Shown here in pieces: positions 3-17,882 of a stretch of 32,208 nt of DNA (its first letter is position 1; each line of letters opens with the position of its first letter). The translations under genes and the position numbers were made by a program. A model generated the notes under the pieces. The model was not told where the DNA came from, ran no database searches, and saw nothing but the letters and a program-made list of their open reading frames with translations. This DNA is from Candidatus Aquivivens invisus (lineage in GTDB: Bacteria; Omnitrophota; Gorgyraeia; Aquiviventales; Aquiviventaceae). Location of the stretch: positions 1-32,208 of the forward strand of contig MHGA01000030.1 of assembly GCA_001804415.1 (NCBI GenBank), written 5' to 3'.

Positions 3-1283
3 ATCCTGCCGGCGTTTCTCTCCCGCGTTCGGGGGCCGTACCACCATCTGATGTTCGAGCCGCCATTTGACTGTCCGCCGGAACGCCCATCGGAGGAAGC
101 GGTCAAGGTGGGCCTCGAGCGGTTCGCCGCGCTCTTGGCTGGTCAGATCGAGCGGGATCCGGCCCAGTGGCTGTGGGTGCATAAACGATGGAAGCGCACC
201 CCCACCCGCCATGTGCTGATCGTCAGCGACGGCAAGCCGGGGCACGTGAAGCAGTCCCTGACGGTGGCGCGCGCCCTCAAGGAGCGTTATGACAACGTAC
301 GGGAACAGGTGATCGAGATTCGTTATCGCAACCGCCTGGCCCGCGCGCTGTGCCTGTTGTGGGCCTGGTGGATGCCGGCGGGGATTGGAGGCCGCTCGTG
401 TCTGCGGTGGACGCTGACGAGGGCGTGTTTCACGCAGCTCGTCAACGCCTATGCGGATATCGTGATCTCCTGCGGTGCCTCGACGGCGCCGGTCAACCTT
501 CTCGTCTCGGCAGAGAATCGCGCGAAATCCGTGGTGATCATGAACCCGGCACCCCTCCCGTTGAGGCGGTTTTCGCTCGCACTGGTGCCGGCCCATGACC
601 GAGTCGCTCGGCGGGGGCCTATCGTCCGCATTCCCGGAGCGCTCACGGCGGTCACCGAGGAGGAGCTGGCGCTCGCCGGCGAACGGCTCAGCCGCCATCC
701 GCAGTTCCGCGCTCAGGACACCATCCTGCGTGGAGGGGAACGGGTGGTCTCGGTGCTGCTGGGCGGAGACACGCGCCACTATGAGCTGACGACGACGTTT
801 GTCGACGGCCTCATCCAGCAGGTCTTGCAGGCCTGTGACGCGGTCGACGGGGTCTGTCTGGTGACGAGCTCGCGGCGGACGCCGCCTGATGTGGAGCGGT
901 TGCTGCAACAACGGCTCGATCGGCACCCCCGCTGCCGGATGGTGTTGCTGGCCAGCCGCGATCCGCTCAATGGCACATCTGAAGGGATGCTGGGCCTGGC
1001 GCGGGTGGTGGTGGTGACCGGCGAGAGCATCTCGATGGTGACCGAGGCATGCGCCAGCGGCCGCCCGGTCCTGGTGGTGGATCCGCCGTTGCGCAAAGCC
1101 GGGTGGGGGCGGGTGACGAAACCGCAACGCTACGTGCGCCAACTCGCGCATGACGGCTACGCCAAACCGTTGTTCCTTCGAGAGGTCAACCAGGCGATCC
1201 AACGGGCTATCGCCCAGCCGCGCGCCACACCGCGTCTCGACGCCTACGCCGCCGTGCGCGACGCCGTCGCCCGCCTCTTGTAG
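3..1283 (+). CDS. LpxL-type lipid A acyltransferase (C-terminal end) fused to ELM1-type glycosyltransferase; 5' partial
   Basis: The reading frame is open from the window edge, so the true start lies outside. The first ~65 visible residues look like the C-terminus of an LpxL/HtrB lipid A acyltransferase: a strand ending FEPP, then the WLWVHKRWK motif that closes these enzymes. With no stop codon the frame continues into a DUF1022/ELM1 domain, beginning HVLIVSDGKPGH, with LLGGDTRHYEL in the middle and VVTGESISMVTEACASGRP near the end. ELM1-type proteins have a GT-B-like fold and occur in LPS gene clusters; the mitochondrial name is historical. A GTG within HVLIVSDG could act as an internal start for a separate ELM1 protein, so fusion versus two products is not settled. 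It leads the glycosyltransferase run and ends 13 bases before the next start. I infer a role in lipid A/core assembly at the inner membrane. Confidence 0.8.
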   Translation: MLPAFLSRVRGPYHHLMFEPPFDCPPERPSEEAVKVGLERFAALLAGQIERDPAQWLWVHKRWKRTPTRHVLIVSDGKPGHVKQSLTVARALKERYDNVREQVIEIRYRNRLARALCLLWAWWMPAGIGGRSCLRWTLTRACFTQLVNAYADIVISCGASTAPVNLLVSAENRAKSVVIMNPAPLPLRRFSLALVPAHDRVARRGPIVRIPGALTAVTEEELALAGERLSRHPQFRAQDTILRGGERVVSVLLGGDTRHYELTTTFVDGLIQQVLQACDAVDGVCLVTSSRRTPPDVERLLQQRLDRHPRCRMVLLASRDPLNGTSEGMLGLARVVVVTGESISMVTEACASGRPVLVVDPPLRKAGWGRVTKPQRYVRQLAHDGYAKPLFLREVNQAIQRAIAQPRATPRLDAYAAVRDAVARLL

Positions 1284-1296
1284 CTGGTGGCGTCCC

Positions 1297-3435
1297 ATGC
1301 ACATCCTCCAACTGATTCCCAGCCTTGACGTCGGCGGCGTGGAGCGCGGCGTGCTCGATCTCACCAAGGGCTTGCTCGCCCGCGGGCATCGCGTGACCGT
1401 CGTCTCAGCCGGCGGGGCGTTGGTGGAACCCCTCACACGGTTGGGCGCGATCCATCATACCCTGCCGGTTCATCGCAAATCCCCATGGTCGATGTGGCGG
1501 ACCGTGCCGGCGTTGTGCCGCGTGATCGAAGGCACAGGGATCGAGGTGGTCCATGCGCGCTCCCGCGTCCCGGCGTGGATCGGTTATGTCGCCTCTCGAC
1601 GCACGCGCCGGCCGTTTGTGACGACCTGCCACGGGTTCTACGCGCCGCATCCGGCTTCTCGGGTGATGGCGTGGGGACGCATCGTCGTCGTGCCGTCCCA
1701 GGCGCTGGGACGCTATGTGATCGATCAGTTCCACGTGCCGCCGGAGCGGCTGCGGGTTATCCCTCGGGGCGTGGATCTGTCCGAGTTTCAGTTCGCGCAC
1801 AAGCCCCCTCCTGCTGACGGCCCGTGGCGCCTCGGGCTCATCGGGCGGCTCAGCGTGCTCAAAGGCCATGAGGTCGCCATCCGTGCCTTGCATCAACTGA
1901 GTCAGCGTCGACATCCTGTGCGCCTCTGTTTCGTCGGAGAGGCCTCCGCCCATAAGCCGCGCATGCGAAGCGGCCTGGAGCGTCTGGCGCATTCGCTTGG
2001 CGTGGCGGATCTGATCGACTGGCAGGGAATGCGCCGGGACATCCCCGAGGCGCTGCGCGCGTTGGATGCGGTGCTCGTGCCCTCCGTGTACCCGGAATCG
2101 TTTGGACGCACCGTGATCGAAGCGCAAGCCGCAGGGGTGCCGGTGATCGCCTCTCGGCTTGGGGCGTTGGCGGAAATCGTGGAGGACGGGACGACGGGTT
2201 TGTTGGTTCCCCCGGGCGACGCCGGCGCGTTGGCGGCGGCGATTGCGAGGCTAATTGGCGATGAGCCCCTGCGCCGTCGATTGGTGCAAGCCGCTCGGGA
2301 GCGCGTTGAAGGGCGGTTTCGACTCGAGGGGATGGTCGACGGCTACGAAGCGGTCTATCGTGACTGTGTGACGAACCCGCGCGTGGTGATCTGGAAGCTC
2401 AGCGCGATGGGCGATTTTGTCCTGGCCACACCGAGCCTGCGGGCGATCCGCCGTCGTTTTCCCACCTCGCACATCAGCGTGGTGGTGGGACAGGCGCTTG
2501 GCGCGTTGGCCGCGCGATGCCCGTACGTGAATGACGTCATCCTCTACGATCCGAAGCGGCGCGATTGGACCCGCCGGGCCGCCCGACGCGTCATCCGACG
2601 GGTTCGGCAAGGCGCCTTTGATCTCTCCATCGATTTGCAGAACAGCCGCCTCACGCACCTGATGGCCTGGGCCTCGGATATTCCCACACGGGTCGGCTAT
2701 GACCGTCGCTGGGGCCGGTCTCTCTCGCAGCGCGTGAGTCTCCCGCGAAGGGCCATGGATCCTGTCAGCCATCAGTTCGAGCTGCTGCGCTCCGCCGGGA
2801 TCCCACCCGACGGGATGGCCTTGGAATTGTGGCCCACCGAGCAGGATGAGCAGGCGGCGCATCGCCTGATGGCCGAGCTGCGCCTCGATTCGCGCAAACC
2901 CCTGGTGGGGCTGCATCCCGGTGGCAGCGCGCGATGGCGCACGAAGCGCTGGGCGCCGGCGCGCTGGGCGGCGCTGTGCGATCGCCTGGCGGATGCCGGC
3001 GCGCAGGTCGTCATCACGGGTAGCACCTCGGAACAGCCTCTGATCGACGCCGTGCGGCAGTTAACCGCATCAGCCCCGGCACTGGTTGTCGGACGGACGT
3101 CGCTCATGGAGCTGGCGGCGCTCATTCGGCGATGCGCGGTGTTCGTGACGCATGATTCAGCGCCGCTGCATGTCGCGGTGGCCATGGGGCGTCCCACGAT
3201 TGCGCTGTTCGGTCCTACGGATCCCGCCCGTCACGCGCCGCCGTCTCCGCTGGTGCATGTGGTCTCGAAGAAGGTGTTCTGCAGCCCCTGCTATTCCCCG
3301 CGATGCCGCACGATCACCCACGCGTGCATGACCCGCATCACCGTCGACGACGTCTTCGATACTGTCCTTGAATTGCTGAATCCAAAATCCAAAATCCAAA
3401 ATCCAAAATCTCCCTCATGCGCATCCTCCACCTGA
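1297..3435 (+). CDS. GT4-GT9 fusion glycosyltransferase (LPS core)
   Basis: A 712-residue protein with two complete glycosyltransferase modules. Residues 1-357 are a GT4 enzyme: N-terminal LIPSLDVGGVERG loop, and the retaining-transferase E-x7-E motif in PESFGRTVIEAQAAG. Residues 358-700 are a GT9 heptosyltransferase: it starts RVVIWKLSAMGD and carries HDSAPLHVAVAMG, LFGPTDP and a C-terminal cysteine cluster (CSPC...CRTITHAC). Both act on the cytoplasmic face during LPS core assembly, and the exact sugars cannot be read. ATG 1297 was chosen because the GT4 fold begins there; the longer frame from 1150 overlaps the upstream gene. A GTG at 2368 lies exactly at the module junction and could give a free GT9. 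The last ~13 residues are coded by an AATCCAA heptamer array and run over the next gene's start by 19 bases. Confidence 0.88.
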   Translation: MHILQLIPSLDVGGVERGVLDLTKGLLARGHRVTVVSAGGALVEPLTRLGAIHHTLPVHRKSPWSMWRTVPALCRVIEGTGIEVVHARSRVPAWIGYVASRRTRRPFVTTCHGFYAPHPASRVMAWGRIVVVPSQALGRYVIDQFHVPPERLRVIPRGVDLSEFQFAHKPPPADGPWRLGLIGRLSVLKGHEVAIRALHQLSQRRHPVRLCFVGEASAHKPRMRSGLERLAHSLGVADLIDWQGMRRDIPEALRALDAVLVPSVYPESFGRTVIEAQAAGVPVIASRLGALAEIVEDGTTGLLVPPGDAGALAAAIARLIGDEPLRRRLVQAARERVEGRFRLEGMVDGYEAVYRDCVTNPRVVIWKLSAMGDFVLATPSLRAIRRRFPTSHISVVVGQALGALAARCPYVNDVILYDPKRRDWTRRAARRVIRRVRQGAFDLSIDLQNSRLTHLMAWASDIPTRVGYDRRWGRSLSQRVSLPRRAMDPVSHQFELLRSAGIPPDGMALELWPTEQDEQAAHRLMAELRLDSRKPLVGLHPGGSARWRTKRWAPARWAALCDRLADAGAQVVITGSTSEQPLIDAVRQLTASAPALVVGRTSLMELAALIRRCAVFVTHDSAPLHVAVAMGRPTIALFGPTDPARHAPPSPLVHVVSKKVFCSPCYSPRCRTITHACMTRITVDDVFDTVLELLNPKSKIQNPKSPSCASST
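3379..3410 (+). repeat. Heptamer array AATCCAA x4 plus partial unit
   Basis: Four exact tandem copies of AATCCAA followed by a degenerate AATCTCC. The array lies in the last codons of the GT4-GT9 gene, giving the tail NPKSKIQNPKS, and ends just before the ATG of the next gene at 3417. No inverted partner is visible here. Confidence 0.9.
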
Positions 3436-14237: not shown

Positions 14238-14251
14238 GCACCAAGCCCAAT
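14238..14251 (+). repeat. Short heptamer pair at the kdsD-kdsC junction
   Basis: Two units, GCACCAA and GCCCAAT, bridge the 12-base gap and reach into the kdsC start codon at 14250. They belong to the same GCACCAA type seen at 15088 and 16131. Confidence 0.6.
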
Positions 14252-14783
14252 GCCTCTCAGTCCTGAAGTGCTGAAACGCGCCCGACAGATTACCACACTC
14301 GTCCTGGATGTTGATGGCGTCCTGACCGATGGGCGCATCATCTACGATGAGTGGGGGGATGAGCTGAAATGTTTCGATGTGCAGGACGGAGCGGGTCTGG
14401 TGCTCTGGCGGCGGGCTGGGTTGCGCAGCGCCATCATCACGGCACGGCACAGCCGCGTGGTCAGACGGCGGGCCAAAGAATTGCGCGTGGACTTCCTCGC
14501 CCAACGAGCGTTGGAGAAGCTGCCGGCGTATGAGAAGCTCCTGAGGCGCTGGCGGCTGCTGCCGGAGTACGTGTGCGCCATCGGGGATGACTTGATGGAG
14601 TTGCCCCTCCTCCGGCGGGTTGGGTTGGCGGTGGCCGTGCCGAATGCCGTGGATGAGGTGAAGGCCGTCAGCCACTACGTCACTCAGCGTCCAGGCGGGC
14701 GCGGAGCGGTGAGAGAAGTCGTCGATCTCCTCCTGAAAGCCTCCGGCCGTTGGGAAGACCTTCTCAAGCGTTACCAGGTTTAG
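14250..14783 (+). CDS. kdsC: Kdo-8-phosphate phosphatase (HAD superfamily)
   Basis: Removes phosphate from Kdo-8-P to give Kdo for KdsB. The HAD nucleophile motif is LDVDGVLTDG with Asp20 and Asp22; YDEWGDELKCFDVQDGAG is the KdsC-type continuation. Motif II is in SAIITARHS and the late acidic motif in AIGDDLMELPLL. Length is 177 residues, normal for the small tetrameric KdsC class without a cap. It lies 12 bases after kdsD and completes the set kdsB-pyrG-kdsA-kdsD-kdsC. No Shine-Dalgarno site is visible before the ATG. An AT-rich stretch with a new promoter follows, so this is probably the last gene of the unit. Confidence 0.94.
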   Translation: MPLSPEVLKRARQITTLVLDVDGVLTDGRIIYDEWGDELKCFDVQDGAGLVLWRRAGLRSAIITARHSRVVRRRAKELRVDFLAQRALEKLPAYEKLLRRWRLLPEYVCAIGDDLMELPLLRRVGLAVAVPNAVDEVKAVSHYVTQRPGGRGAVREVVDLLLKASGRWEDLLKRYQV

Positions 14784-14822: not shown

Positions 14823-14851
14823 TTGAATGATTAAGAGGTTTATGGTATGAT
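14823..14851 (+). promoter_or_regulatory. Sigma-70 promoter for the small HTH gene
   Basis: The -35 TTGAAT (14823-14828) and -10 TATGAT (14846-14851) have a 17-base spacing, within the only clearly AT-rich stretch of the window. The -10 covers an ATG at 14847, which therefore cannot be the translation start. The predicted transcript start near 14858 is 4 bases before the next in-frame ATG at 14862. Confidence 0.75.
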
Positions 14852-14861
14852 TACGGCTGTC

Positions 14862-15074
14862 ATGACACTCAACGGCAAGACGAACGACAACAATATTATG
14901 ACCCTCAGTGAAGTGGCGAATTACCTGGGCCTTCACGTGATGACGGTCTACAAGCTCACGCGGGAAGGCCGGGTGCCTGCGGCGAAGATTGGGGGTCAGT
15001 GGCGCTTCAAGCGAGACATCTTGGATGGCTGGCTTGAGGCGCAGATGCTCAGGCGAGCCGGCGCCAAGTCGTAA
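14862..15074 (+). CDS. Small excisionase/MerR-like helix-turn-helix protein
   Basis: A 70-residue protein made almost entirely of a winged HTH_17/excisionase-type DNA-binding domain: MTLSEVANYLGLHVMTVYKLTREGRVPAAKIGGQWRF with a closing WLEAQ helix. Such proteins bind DNA as small regulators or as accessory factors; there is no integrase or phage gene nearby, so a local transcription regulator is more likely than an excisionase. ATG 14862 was preferred over 14847, which lies in the -10 box; ATG 14898, exactly at the domain start, is also possible. No Shine-Dalgarno site is seen and the leader would be about 4 bases. It sits between the Kdo operon and the lipid A/LPS-export operon, so control of one of these is an inference. 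Confidence 0.8.
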   Translation: MTLNGKTNDNNIMTLSEVANYLGLHVMTVYKLTREGRVPAAKIGGQWRFKRDILDGWLEAQMLRRAGAKS

Positions 15075-15087
15075 GCCCCCAACCTAA

Positions 15088-15108
15088 GCACCAAGCACCA
15101 AGCACGAA
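15088..15108 (+). repeat. Heptamer array GCACCAA x3 in a 166-base intergenic region
   Basis: Units GCACCAA, GCACCAA, GCACGAA follow the HTH gene. The rest of the gap up to 15190 is filled with degenerate GCACG-rich sequence, including a small hairpin around 15142-15160 (ACGGT/ACCGT arms). No gene or clear terminator with a T-run is visible in the gap. Confidence 0.8.
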
Positions 15109-15240: not shown

Positions 15241-17154
15241 ATGGTGATGAAACACCCGATTCGACGACGAGCGATGCTTGCGGCCTTCCTGGCCCTGCGC
15301 AGCCTCATCCGGTGGCTTCCCCTCTCGGTGGCACAGGCGTGCGGTCGGCTCCTCGGCTACCTCGGCTACGCCCTCTTAGGTCCGTATCGGCGCCTGACGT
15401 TGGCGCATCTGCATCTGGCGCTGGGTCCGCGGGCCAGTCGCGCCACGTGCGCCAGGGTGGCCCGCGGGGTGTTTGTCAACCTCGCGAAGTCGTTCCTCGA
15501 GTGGCTCGTGATGGATCGGCTCTCGCCGGAGGCGCTGAGGCGCCGGGTCGACGTCTACGGCGTGCATTACCTGCGCGAGGCCCTGGCGAACGGCCGCGGG
15601 GTGATCGCCCTCTCGGCGCATTTTGGCAACTGGGAACTCCTCGCGATGACGCTGGCCGGCCTTGGCTTTCAGGGCGGGGTGCTGGCCCGACGGCTGCGAT
15701 ATCCGGAATTTGAGCCCTTCCTGGTTGGGATGCGCGCGCGCAAAGGGGTGACGACCTACGCGCGCGGCTCGGTGAAAGAGGTCGCCCGCCTCCTGCGCGA
15801 GAACCGGATCATCGGCATGATGCCCGACCAGGACCTCGACAGCCTGGAGGGGGTGTTTGTGGACTTTTTCGATCGGCCGGCCTACACCCCGGTGGGACCC
15901 GCGGCGCTCTCCCTCATGACCGGTGCAATGATCCTGCCGTGTTTTCTCGTTCGAGACGGACGGCGGTTCCGGCTGGTGATTGAAGAACCCGTCACCGTGG
16001 CCCGTCGGGGCGACCGCGCCAAGGATCTGGTGGCGATCACCGACGCCTGGAGCCGCGTCGTGGAGTCGTATATCCGCCGGTATCCGGATCATTGGGTCTG
16101 GATGCACCGTCGCTGGAAGACCCAACCTTCAGTACCAAGCACCAAGCACCAAGCACTCAGTACCCAGCTCTCGGTTCCAAGGGTGCCTCAAGCCGCTGTT
16201 TCATCGTTCTTGTTTACGCTTACTGCTTACTGCTTAGTGCTTAGTGCTGTGCTTGGGTGCGCGAAGTCCTCACCCCCGTCTCCGCCGCAGGCCACGGCCG
16301 CCTCGTCCACGACGCCGTCAACGGAGGCTCCGCAACGCATGGATCGCTTTACCATGGTCGGCTACAGCCCCGCGGGCGCGAAGGAGTGGGACCTGGAAGG
16401 CCACGGCGCGGTCGCGGAAGGGGCGGTGGTCACCATCCAGCAGCCCCACGCGATTGGCTACGACCGCGAGCGCACGTCCGATATCACCGCGAGCCTCGCC
16501 CATGTCGATCAGCAGACCCATTACATCCGCCTTGAGCACGAGGTGACCATTCACACCTCCGACGGCCTCTGGGTGATGGCGCCGCAGCTCTACTGGTTGT
16601 CGGATCGGGACGAGATGCAGACGGACGAGCCGGTTCGGATTGAGACCGACCACATGCTCATCCGCGGTCGAGGAGCCGTCGCCCACGCCCAGGTGAAGAC
16701 GGCGATTGTCGAGCGAGACATCGAGCTGGTGCTGAATCCTTCGGACGGCGAGGCGGTGGGAGCACCTCCGGCGCATGTGACCATCACGTGCGAGGGCCCG
16801 CTTGTGTTTGAATACGAGAAAGGCATCGCGACGTTCCACACCAATGTGCACGTGAACGATCACCAAGGCGATCTCTACTCGGACACGCTCATCGCGTATG
16901 TGGATCAGAAGACGCACACGATCCGCTACGCGGATGCGATCGGCCGGGTTCGCATCGTGCAGGGACCGCACACGGCGCACGGGGATCACGCGGTGTATGA
17001 GCCGGCGCTGGCGAAAGTGACCTTGCTTGGCTCGCCGTACCTCGTCCTGTACCCCGAGGACTCGCAGCCGGCCGTGGCCCCGCACCCCCCCACGGTCGAG
17101 GCGACGCCGCGCCCGCCGTCAGAGCCGCAACAGGTTGCCGTCACCGTCCCCTGA
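15241..17154 (+). CDS. LpxL-type acyltransferase / LptC / LptA triple fusion
   Basis: A 637-residue protein. Residues 1-296 are an LpxL/HtrB-type lipid A late acyltransferase, with the catalytic H-x4-E in HFGNWE (His127, Glu132), MMPDQDLDSLEGVFVDFF, and the terminal WVWMHRRWK. Residues 297-311 are coded by AGCACCA heptamers. A hydrophobic segment (FLFTLTAYCLVLSAVLGC, ending at Cys340) follows and would span the membrane or act as a lipoprotein signal. Residues ~367-490 resemble LptC (FTMVGYSPAGAKEWDLEG). Residues ~514-615 resemble an OstA/LptA repeat (ITCEGPLVFEYEKGIATFHT). The topology is sensible: cytoplasmic acyltransferase, one span, periplasmic LptC-LptA bridge. A GTG at 16183 could alternatively start a separate LptC-LptA lipoprotein. 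It is followed 5 bases later by lptB. Confidence 0.83.
   Translation: MVMKHPIRRRAMLAAFLALRSLIRWLPLSVAQACGRLLGYLGYALLGPYRRLTLAHLHLALGPRASRATCARVARGVFVNLAKSFLEWLVMDRLSPEALRRRVDVYGVHYLREALANGRGVIALSAHFGNWELLAMTLAGLGFQGGVLARRLRYPEFEPFLVGMRARKGVTTYARGSVKEVARLLRENRIIGMMPDQDLDSLEGVFVDFFDRPAYTPVGPAALSLMTGAMILPCFLVRDGRRFRLVIEEPVTVARRGDRAKDLVAITDAWSRVVESYIRRYPDHWVWMHRRWKTQPSVPSTKHQALSTQLSVPRVPQAAVSSFLFTLTAYCLVLSAVLGCAKSSPPSPPQATAASSTTPSTEAPQRMDRFTMVGYSPAGAKEWDLEGHGAVAEGAVVTIQQPHAIGYDRERTSDITASLAHVDQQTHYIRLEHEVTIHTSDGLWVMAPQLYWLSDRDEMQTDEPVRIETDHMLIRGRGAVAHAQVKTAIVERDIELVLNPSDGEAVGAPPAHVTITCEGPLVFEYEKGIATFHTNVHVNDHQGDLYSDTLIAYVDQKTHTIRYADAIGRVRIVQGPHTAHGDHAVYEPALAKVTLLGSPYLVLYPEDSQPAVAPHPPTVEATPRPPSEPQQVAVTVP
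16131..16251 (+). repeat. Translated inverted heptamer pair AGCACCA / TGCTTAG
   Basis: Arm 1 (16131-16172): AGTACCA, AGCACCA, AGCACCA, AGCACTC, AGTACCC, AGCTCTC. Arm 2 (16217-16251): CGCTTAC, TGCTTAC, TGCTTAG, TGCTTAG, TGCTGTG. The arms are imperfect reverse complements. Both are read in frame; arm 2 codes the hydrophobic core of the membrane segment before Cys340. Confidence 0.88.
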
Positions 17155-17159
17155 TTAGC

Positions 17160-17882
17160 ATGGAACAGCTCACGACCAAGCACCTCGTCAAAGGCTACAA
17201 TGGCCGCGCCGTCGTCGACGGCGTCGAGATCGTGGTCCGCCGCGGAGAGATCGTGGGGCTCCTGGGGCCGAACGGGGCGGGGAAAACCACAACCTTTGCC
17301 ATGATCGTCGGCTATGTGAGGCCGGATGGAGGAGCGATCACCGTCGACGGCCGCGACATCACCGCGCTGCCCATGTACCAGCGCGCGCGCTTAGGGATCG
17401 GCTACCTGGCGCAGGAACCGTCGATCTTCCGCAAGCTGACCGTTGAAGACAATATCCTGGCGATCCTGGAGACCGTGGGCTGCTCGAGGACCCAGCGCCG
17501 CACGCGGCTCGACGAGTTGCTCAATGAATTGGGGATCACCCATCTGGCCCGGCAAAAAGCGTTTGTCCTCTCAGGCGGCGAGAAGCGGCGCCTGGAGATC
17601 ACGCGGGCGTTGGTCACCAATCCGCAGTTTATTCTCCTGGATGAGCCGTTTTCCGGGATTGACCCGATCACCGTGTTTGAGTGCCAGGAAATCATCCGGG
17701 AGCTGAAGGCCCGGGGGCTGGGCGTCCTCTTGACCGATCATAACGTGCGTGAGACGCTGGAGATCACCGACCGCTCCTACATCATGGCGGAGGGCCGGGT
17801 GCTCATCTCCGGCACCGCCCAGGAACTGATCACCGACCCGAAAGCCCGCGAGATCTACCTCGGCGAAAAGTTCCGGATGTAA
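17160..17882 (+). CDS. lptB: LPS export ABC transporter ATP-binding protein
   Basis: The cytoplasmic ATPase of the LptB2FG complex, which drives LPS extraction toward LptC and LptA. The 240 residues hold Walker A GPNGAGKT at 36-43, Q-loop in YLAQEPS, signature LSGGE at 137-141, Walker B ILLDEP at 158-163, and the switch His194. LNELGITHLARQKAFVLSGGEKRR and EIYLGEKFRM are typical of LptB. It begins 5 bases after the acyltransferase-LptC-LptA fusion, so the bridge proteins and the ATPase are co-transcribed. LptF and LptG are not in this window. Confidence 0.95.
   Translation: MEQLTTKHLVKGYNGRAVVDGVEIVVRRGEIVGLLGPNGAGKTTTFAMIVGYVRPDGGAITVDGRDITALPMYQRARLGIGYLAQEPSIFRKLTVEDNILAILETVGCSRTQRRTRLDELLNELGITHLARQKAFVLSGGEKRRLEITRALVTNPQFILLDEPFSGIDPITVFECQEIIRELKARGLGVLLTDHNVRETLEITDRSYIMAEGRVLISGTAQELITDPKAREIYLGEKFRM

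Follow-up and report, generated by a model that had tools for sequence, protein, structure and literature searches.

LptC and LptA of the Escherichia coli lipopolysaccharide (LPS) transport bridge are separate proteins, and LptC has an N-terminal transmembrane anchor. A bacterial chain that contains an internal signal sequence and is cut into two membrane proteins is exemplified by the FbcH cytochrome b/c1 precursor. The transmembrane domain of E. coli LptC is described as dispensable in one report (PMC4986956), and the Borrelia LptC, BB0464, is given as a predicted lipoprotein with a signal-II peptide in another (PMC10353723); because of these two reports a lipid anchor on LptC is credible. 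Arrays of the heptamer TAACTGA in the Beggiatoaceae are, according to a further report (PMC4679880), intergenic, sometimes entering reading frames, mostly at protein edges. Here we describe a locus in which an acyltransferase of lipid A and the LptC and LptA-like parts of the bridge share one reading frame, with heptamer repeats between them.

Organization of the fused gene

An overview of the fused gene and its neighbors in the window (the whole stretch of DNA analyzed, 32,208 nucleotides) is as follows:

14250–14783, + strand: kdsC-like Kdo-8-phosphate phosphatase gene, upstream neighbor of the fusion
15241–17154, + strand: lpxL-lptC-lptA fused reading frame, 637 amino acids
15277–16122, + strand: lipid A acyltransferase domain PF03279, residues 13–294
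15619–15636, + strand: HFGNWE motif, H-x4-E in the acyltransferase domain
16234–16692, + strand: LptC match PF06835, residues 332–484
16807–17043, + strand: LptA-like / LptD_N domain PF03968, residues 523–601
17160–17882, + strand: lptB, 240 amino acids, 3′ of the fusion

The initial annotation had proposed that LpxL, LptC and LptA are fused in one frame followed by lptB, and this is borne out: the frame contains no internal stops, and a domain search of the full chain places PF03279, PF06835 and PF03968 above their Pfam cut-offs (163.5 bits against 22.3, 32.5 against 21, and 24.5 against 20.4, respectively). The true start may be the ATG at 15247 and not 15241, because most relatives open with MKHPIRRR. 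The acyltransferase domain also matches the PDB acyltransferases 5f2t and 5kn7 (phmmer), and H127 and E132 of HFGNWE, which we take to be the H-x4-E catalytic motif of PF03279 acyltransferases, are invariant in the alignment of all 20 fusions; none of the listed acyltransferase NCBIfam equivalog cut-offs for LpxL or LpxM specificity was reached (best 147 bits against 248). The LptC part passes the NCBIfam model TIGR04409 (44 bits, cut-off 38), and lptB passes TIGR04406 (352 bits, cut-off 240). The last domain misses the cut-off of the LptA equivalog TIGR03002 (17.9 against 71.7 bits), and is thus named LptA-like.

Several further features of the surroundings are apparent. A 75-residue protein with an excisionase-type helix-turn-helix is encoded between kdsC and the fusion (14847–15074). 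At the contig edge (3–1283) there is the C-terminal part of a second LpxL-type domain, fused to an ELM1-like PF06258 domain, and LpxL paralogs in frames of about 650 amino acids, as judged from frame lengths in the search listing, recur across the class. A 761-residue frame at 1150–3435 joins GT4-type and GT9 (heptosyltransferase) domains.

Structure prediction, suggested by the initial annotation for the full chain, succeeded for the LptC-LptA half. Modeled alone, this C-terminal half forms two beta-domains with a mean pLDDT of 83, whereas a full-length AlphaFold model from a 3-row alignment had a mean pLDDT of 39 and was left unused. The LptC-LptA model resembles the LptC structures 6mit, 4b54 and 3my2, as well as LptA, LptH and the N-domains of LptD; Foldseek finds the beta-taco LptC fold (6mit chain C, E 3.1e-7), and VIA-align superimposes model residues 157–290 on 4b54 chain B (Z 16.0, rmsd 2.3, 120 aligned) and residues 48–176 on chain C of the LptB2FGC structure 9doq (Z 11.7, rmsd 2.2, 129 aligned). 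MORN, OspA and similar beta-sheet proteins in the VIA-align list were treated as sharing only the arrangement. The genome G000 (93% complete) encodes two LptF/LptG genes together with a single LptC match and a single PF03968 match, both in the fused gene; because these matches are single, the fused gene probably supplies the only bridge there.

Distribution and history of the fusion

The order is represented in our data set by 28 genomes, 27 in the Omnitrophota family of the window and one outside it. Because listed frame lengths can span stops (that of G020 is listed as 714 amino acids, and yet has four stops in the linker), fused or unfused status within the family was taken from the DNA itself. 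The survey of relatives proposed by the initial annotation found the uninterrupted fusion in 20 of the 27 family genomes, representing 19 genera, with 46–71% identity to the window protein. Among the other seven, G019 has a joined junction with a frameshift in lpxL, the locus breaks off at a contig end within or at the linker in G005 and G041, no ortholog of the locus was found in G007 and G040, and G004 and G020 are unfused. We note that the linker repeats may perhaps have broken the assembly where the G005 and G041 contigs (L056 and L144) end.

A survey of the phylum searched 384 genomes, of which 125 matched at E 1e-55, 14 in the family and 111 outside; the 259 below the threshold are uninformative as to fused or unfused status. 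An uninterrupted frame across both parts is listed for none of the 111 matched non-family genomes. Long non-family frames either have stops in the match or were read as separate genes in the DNA, with G068 and G228 judged by the listed stop only; the frames of 710 and 657 amino acids in G127 and G134 were ruled out as fusions, the DNA showing lpxL separate from lptC-lptA. In the unfused relatives that were read, lpxL mostly adjoins lptC-lptA, often with an overlap or a single stop between them. The fusion is a mark of a single family of uncultured bacteria. No LpxL-LptC fusion was found described in the open-access papers searched. A weak LptC-like stretch at G039:C39:136067-136357 lies in a listed open frame of 24135 amino acids, possibly a giant gene.

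In a phylogeny built from both domains in concatenation (36 tips, of which 13 are unfused), the unfused G004 branches off as the sister group of the fused members as a whole (support 90). The unfused G020 is nested among fused members with a local support of 88, with several deeper nodes at 46–79, and its linker contains a new ATG as well as four stops. Junction stops in orthologs, named earlier as an observation that would count against the fusion, are present in two of 27 family genomes, one basal and one nested, while 20 are open throughout. This pattern suggests a single fusion followed by a single later split in G020.

The junction and its repeats

Between the two halves of the protein lie the following elements:

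16123–16203, + strand: variable linker, residues 295–321, presumably cytoplasmic
16204–16257, + strand: hydrophobic segment SFLFTLTAYCLVLSAVLG, residues 322–339, h-region of a putative internal lipoprotein signal peptide
16258–16260, + strand: Cys340 of the putative lipobox VLG-C, with Cys in 19 of 20 fusions

In the alignment of 20 sequences from T294, the end of LpxL, to F370 in the LptC core, only P296, G339, C340 and M367 reach at least 90% column conservation. A hydrophobic stretch is present in all 20 fusions, with a mean hydropathy of 1.2–2.2 over 18 residues, and that of the window protein corresponds to helix 6–24 of the LptC-LptA model, where confidence is low. In 19 fusions the stretch is closed by Gly-Cys, and the mature LptC domain would begin at Cys340. 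A strict, PS51257-like lipobox pattern fits 13 of the 20, including the window protein; among the seven that fail, residues near positions −3/−2 are in some cases H, D, E or N. In 16 of the 20, a Lys or Arg stands at position +3 after the Cys. The only fusion that has no Cys (L038) has GWAEA at this position, which could serve signal peptidase I. As in lipoproteins, then, a hydrophobic stretch precedes a lipobox Cys, but here the signal is preceded by about 320 residues of the frame and is not at the N-terminus of the primary product.

The N-termini of unfused LptC-LptA proteins were sorted by eye into three types. Lipobox signals are seen in L057, L058, L059, L061, L071, L073, L076, L154, L159 and others, transmembrane anchors in, for example, L060, L068 and L077, and signals resembling those of signal peptidase I substrates in, for example, L063, L072 and L152. 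Both unfused family members, the basal L057 and the nested split L054, have the lipobox type. The anchor of unfused Omnitrophota LptC-LptA thus appears to alternate among lipobox, transmembrane helix and cleavable signal (L058–L063, L068–L077, L149–L163).

At the DNA level the linker and hydrophobic core are built largely from heptamer repeats, in two arrays:

16129–16167, + strand: heptamer array of the CACCAAG type, inside the linker
16213–16248, + strand: heptamer array in inverse orientation, encoding most of the hydrophobic segment

Identity at a lag of 7 is 0.428 over the linker and hydrophobic stretch, compared to 0.278 in codon shuffles (maximum 0.303 of 1000) and 0.26–0.27 in the two domains. 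The heptamer varies between genera (11 of the 20 junctions were displayed), and it contributes codons of the hydrophobic stretch in L034, L035, L036 and L048. Some of these heptamers are dispersed in the genome: AAGCACYAAGCAC has 45 sites in G000 against a control of 0, and AGCACACAGCACACAG has 61, 53 and 77 sites in G000, G016 and G023, respectively, again with a control of 0. The AGCACACAGCACACAG pattern is absent from G018, G003 and G008, and its 13 sites in G013 are not clearly above the 4 of the control; GGGCTCAGGGCTCAG occurs only at the junction in G008 and G017. Because heptamers are not dispersed in some genomes, the array at the junction belongs to a genome-wide repeat in some cases only. 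A crude gene caller applied to ten G000 repeat clusters places six outside frames of at least 110 amino acids and four inside. Several heptamer types occur in G000, many of them dispersed and mostly outside frames, with some at protein starts; another instance is at 15085–15105 of the window. A plausible origin of the fusion is that repeat expansion erased the stop between two coupled genes.

Translation and fate of the chain

Because the linker, hydrophobic stretch and Gly-Cys have the layout of a lipoprotein signal, we favor the reading, with a probability of about 0.6, that the fused gene encodes a polyprotein that Lgt and LspA would process into LpxL on the one hand and a lipidated LptC-LptA on the other. 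We infer export, lipidation, cleavage and function of this polyprotein as follows. The N-terminal LpxL-type acyltransferase would remain on the cytoplasmic side of the inner membrane, and the hydrophobic stretch would act as a late signal sequence that engages Sec, carrying the LptC-LptA part to the periplasm. The conserved Cys would be lipidated by Lgt and LspA would cleave before it, so that mature LpxL would retain a membrane tail at its C-terminus, and the lipid-anchored LptC-LptA bridge would work with LptB, LptF and LptG. What the fusion would provide is one-to-one co-translation, not permanent coupling. Lgt and LspA genes are both present in G000; of the 20 fused genomes, 16 have a detected Lgt and 15 a detected LspA, and the misses may be explained by incompleteness of the metagenome-assembled genomes or by true absence. 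We know of no processed case of a lipoprotein signal some 320 residues into a chain.

Alternatively, the hydrophobic stretch could be a membrane anchor in an uncleaved chain that tethers the acylation enzyme permanently to the export bridge, the physical linkage of acylation to export that the initial annotation had envisaged. The inside-to-outside topology that it described is supported and makes such a tether feasible, the frame is maintained across 19 genera, and a plain transmembrane anchor is found on many unfused Omnitrophota LptC-LptA proteins. However, a tether requires no Gly-Cys, and yet this pair is conserved in an otherwise free linker, and the unfused members of the family as well as several unfused relatives have lipobox signals. 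Because the Gly-Cys resembles a lipoprotein signal cleaved by LspA, the mature proteins are probably separate, and permanent tethering is the less likely mechanism. Should all of the chain, or some persistent share of it, stay uncut, which we doubt, the last lipid A acylation would occur at the point of entry to the Lpt exporter, with the product passed on directly.

A third reading, which we regard as quite improbable, is that independent initiation in or near the linker yields two proteins, the open frame being incidental. A restart had been proposed earlier as a finding that would undo the fusion, at the following codon:

16183–16185, + strand: GTG, proposed restart, not conserved

The Shine-Dalgarno match of this GTG never exceeds 3. 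Elsewhere there is something to be said for internal initiation: an in-frame start-like codon 14 or more residues ahead of the Cys is present in 16 of the 20 fusions, slightly above the 11.6 (sd 2.1) of nucleotide shuffles, and L047 has an ATG with a 4-base Shine-Dalgarno match. However, L037, L039, L049 and L051 have no in-frame ATG, GTG or TTG at that distance, ATG alone is at chance (5 against 4.7 in shuffles), and GTG and TTG double as the Val and Leu codons of the hydrophobic part. Shine-Dalgarno matches at the candidate restarts are mostly no better than background, although true starts of genes in the window are likewise weak. Moreover, the coding frame has no stops over 947 linker-to-Cys codons in the 20 fusions, compared to 27 and 14 in the other forward frames. 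From the open frame and the missing restart codons, translation of LptC-LptA most likely occurs, in at least several genera, as a continuation of LpxL. Finally, although the titled relatives are metagenome assemblies, two contigs stop within or at the linker and one lpxL is frameshifted, an artefact of assembly or reading is hardly tenable given the same junction in 20 separate genomes whose proteins have 46–71% identity with that of the window.

Comparison with known systems

If the chain is cut as we favor, it would be a natural bacterial polyprotein split by way of an internal lipoprotein signal, for which no described route is known to us, and LPS maturation and export would be bound to one translation event; if it is uncut, completion of lipid A would be physically coupled to export. 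The fusion is like FbcH in being a single chain with an internal signal sequence, although FbcH involves signal peptidase I and respiratory proteins, and the present locus a lipobox and LPS proteins. It resembles the LpxL/HtrB-type late acyltransferases (PF03279) in having the domain above cut-off with an invariant H-x4-E, and differs in that a linker, a hydrophobic segment and two periplasmic domains are added at its C-terminus. Likewise it resembles LptC and LptA of the Lpt bridge, as seen from the LptC cut-offs passed, the similar model and the adjoining lptB, but here LptC and LptA share one chain that is translated behind LpxL. Borrelia BB0464 is an LptC with a predicted signal-II peptide, like the LptC part of the fusion; in contrast, its signal is N-terminal and there is no acyltransferase in front. 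The heptamer arrays run into reading frames as the TAACTGA repeats of the Beggiatoaceae sometimes do, although the heptamers are different and are positioned here between two fused domains. Known parts are combined here into what we predict to be a polyprotein of LpxL and LptC-LptA, with a lipoprotein signal inside the chain.
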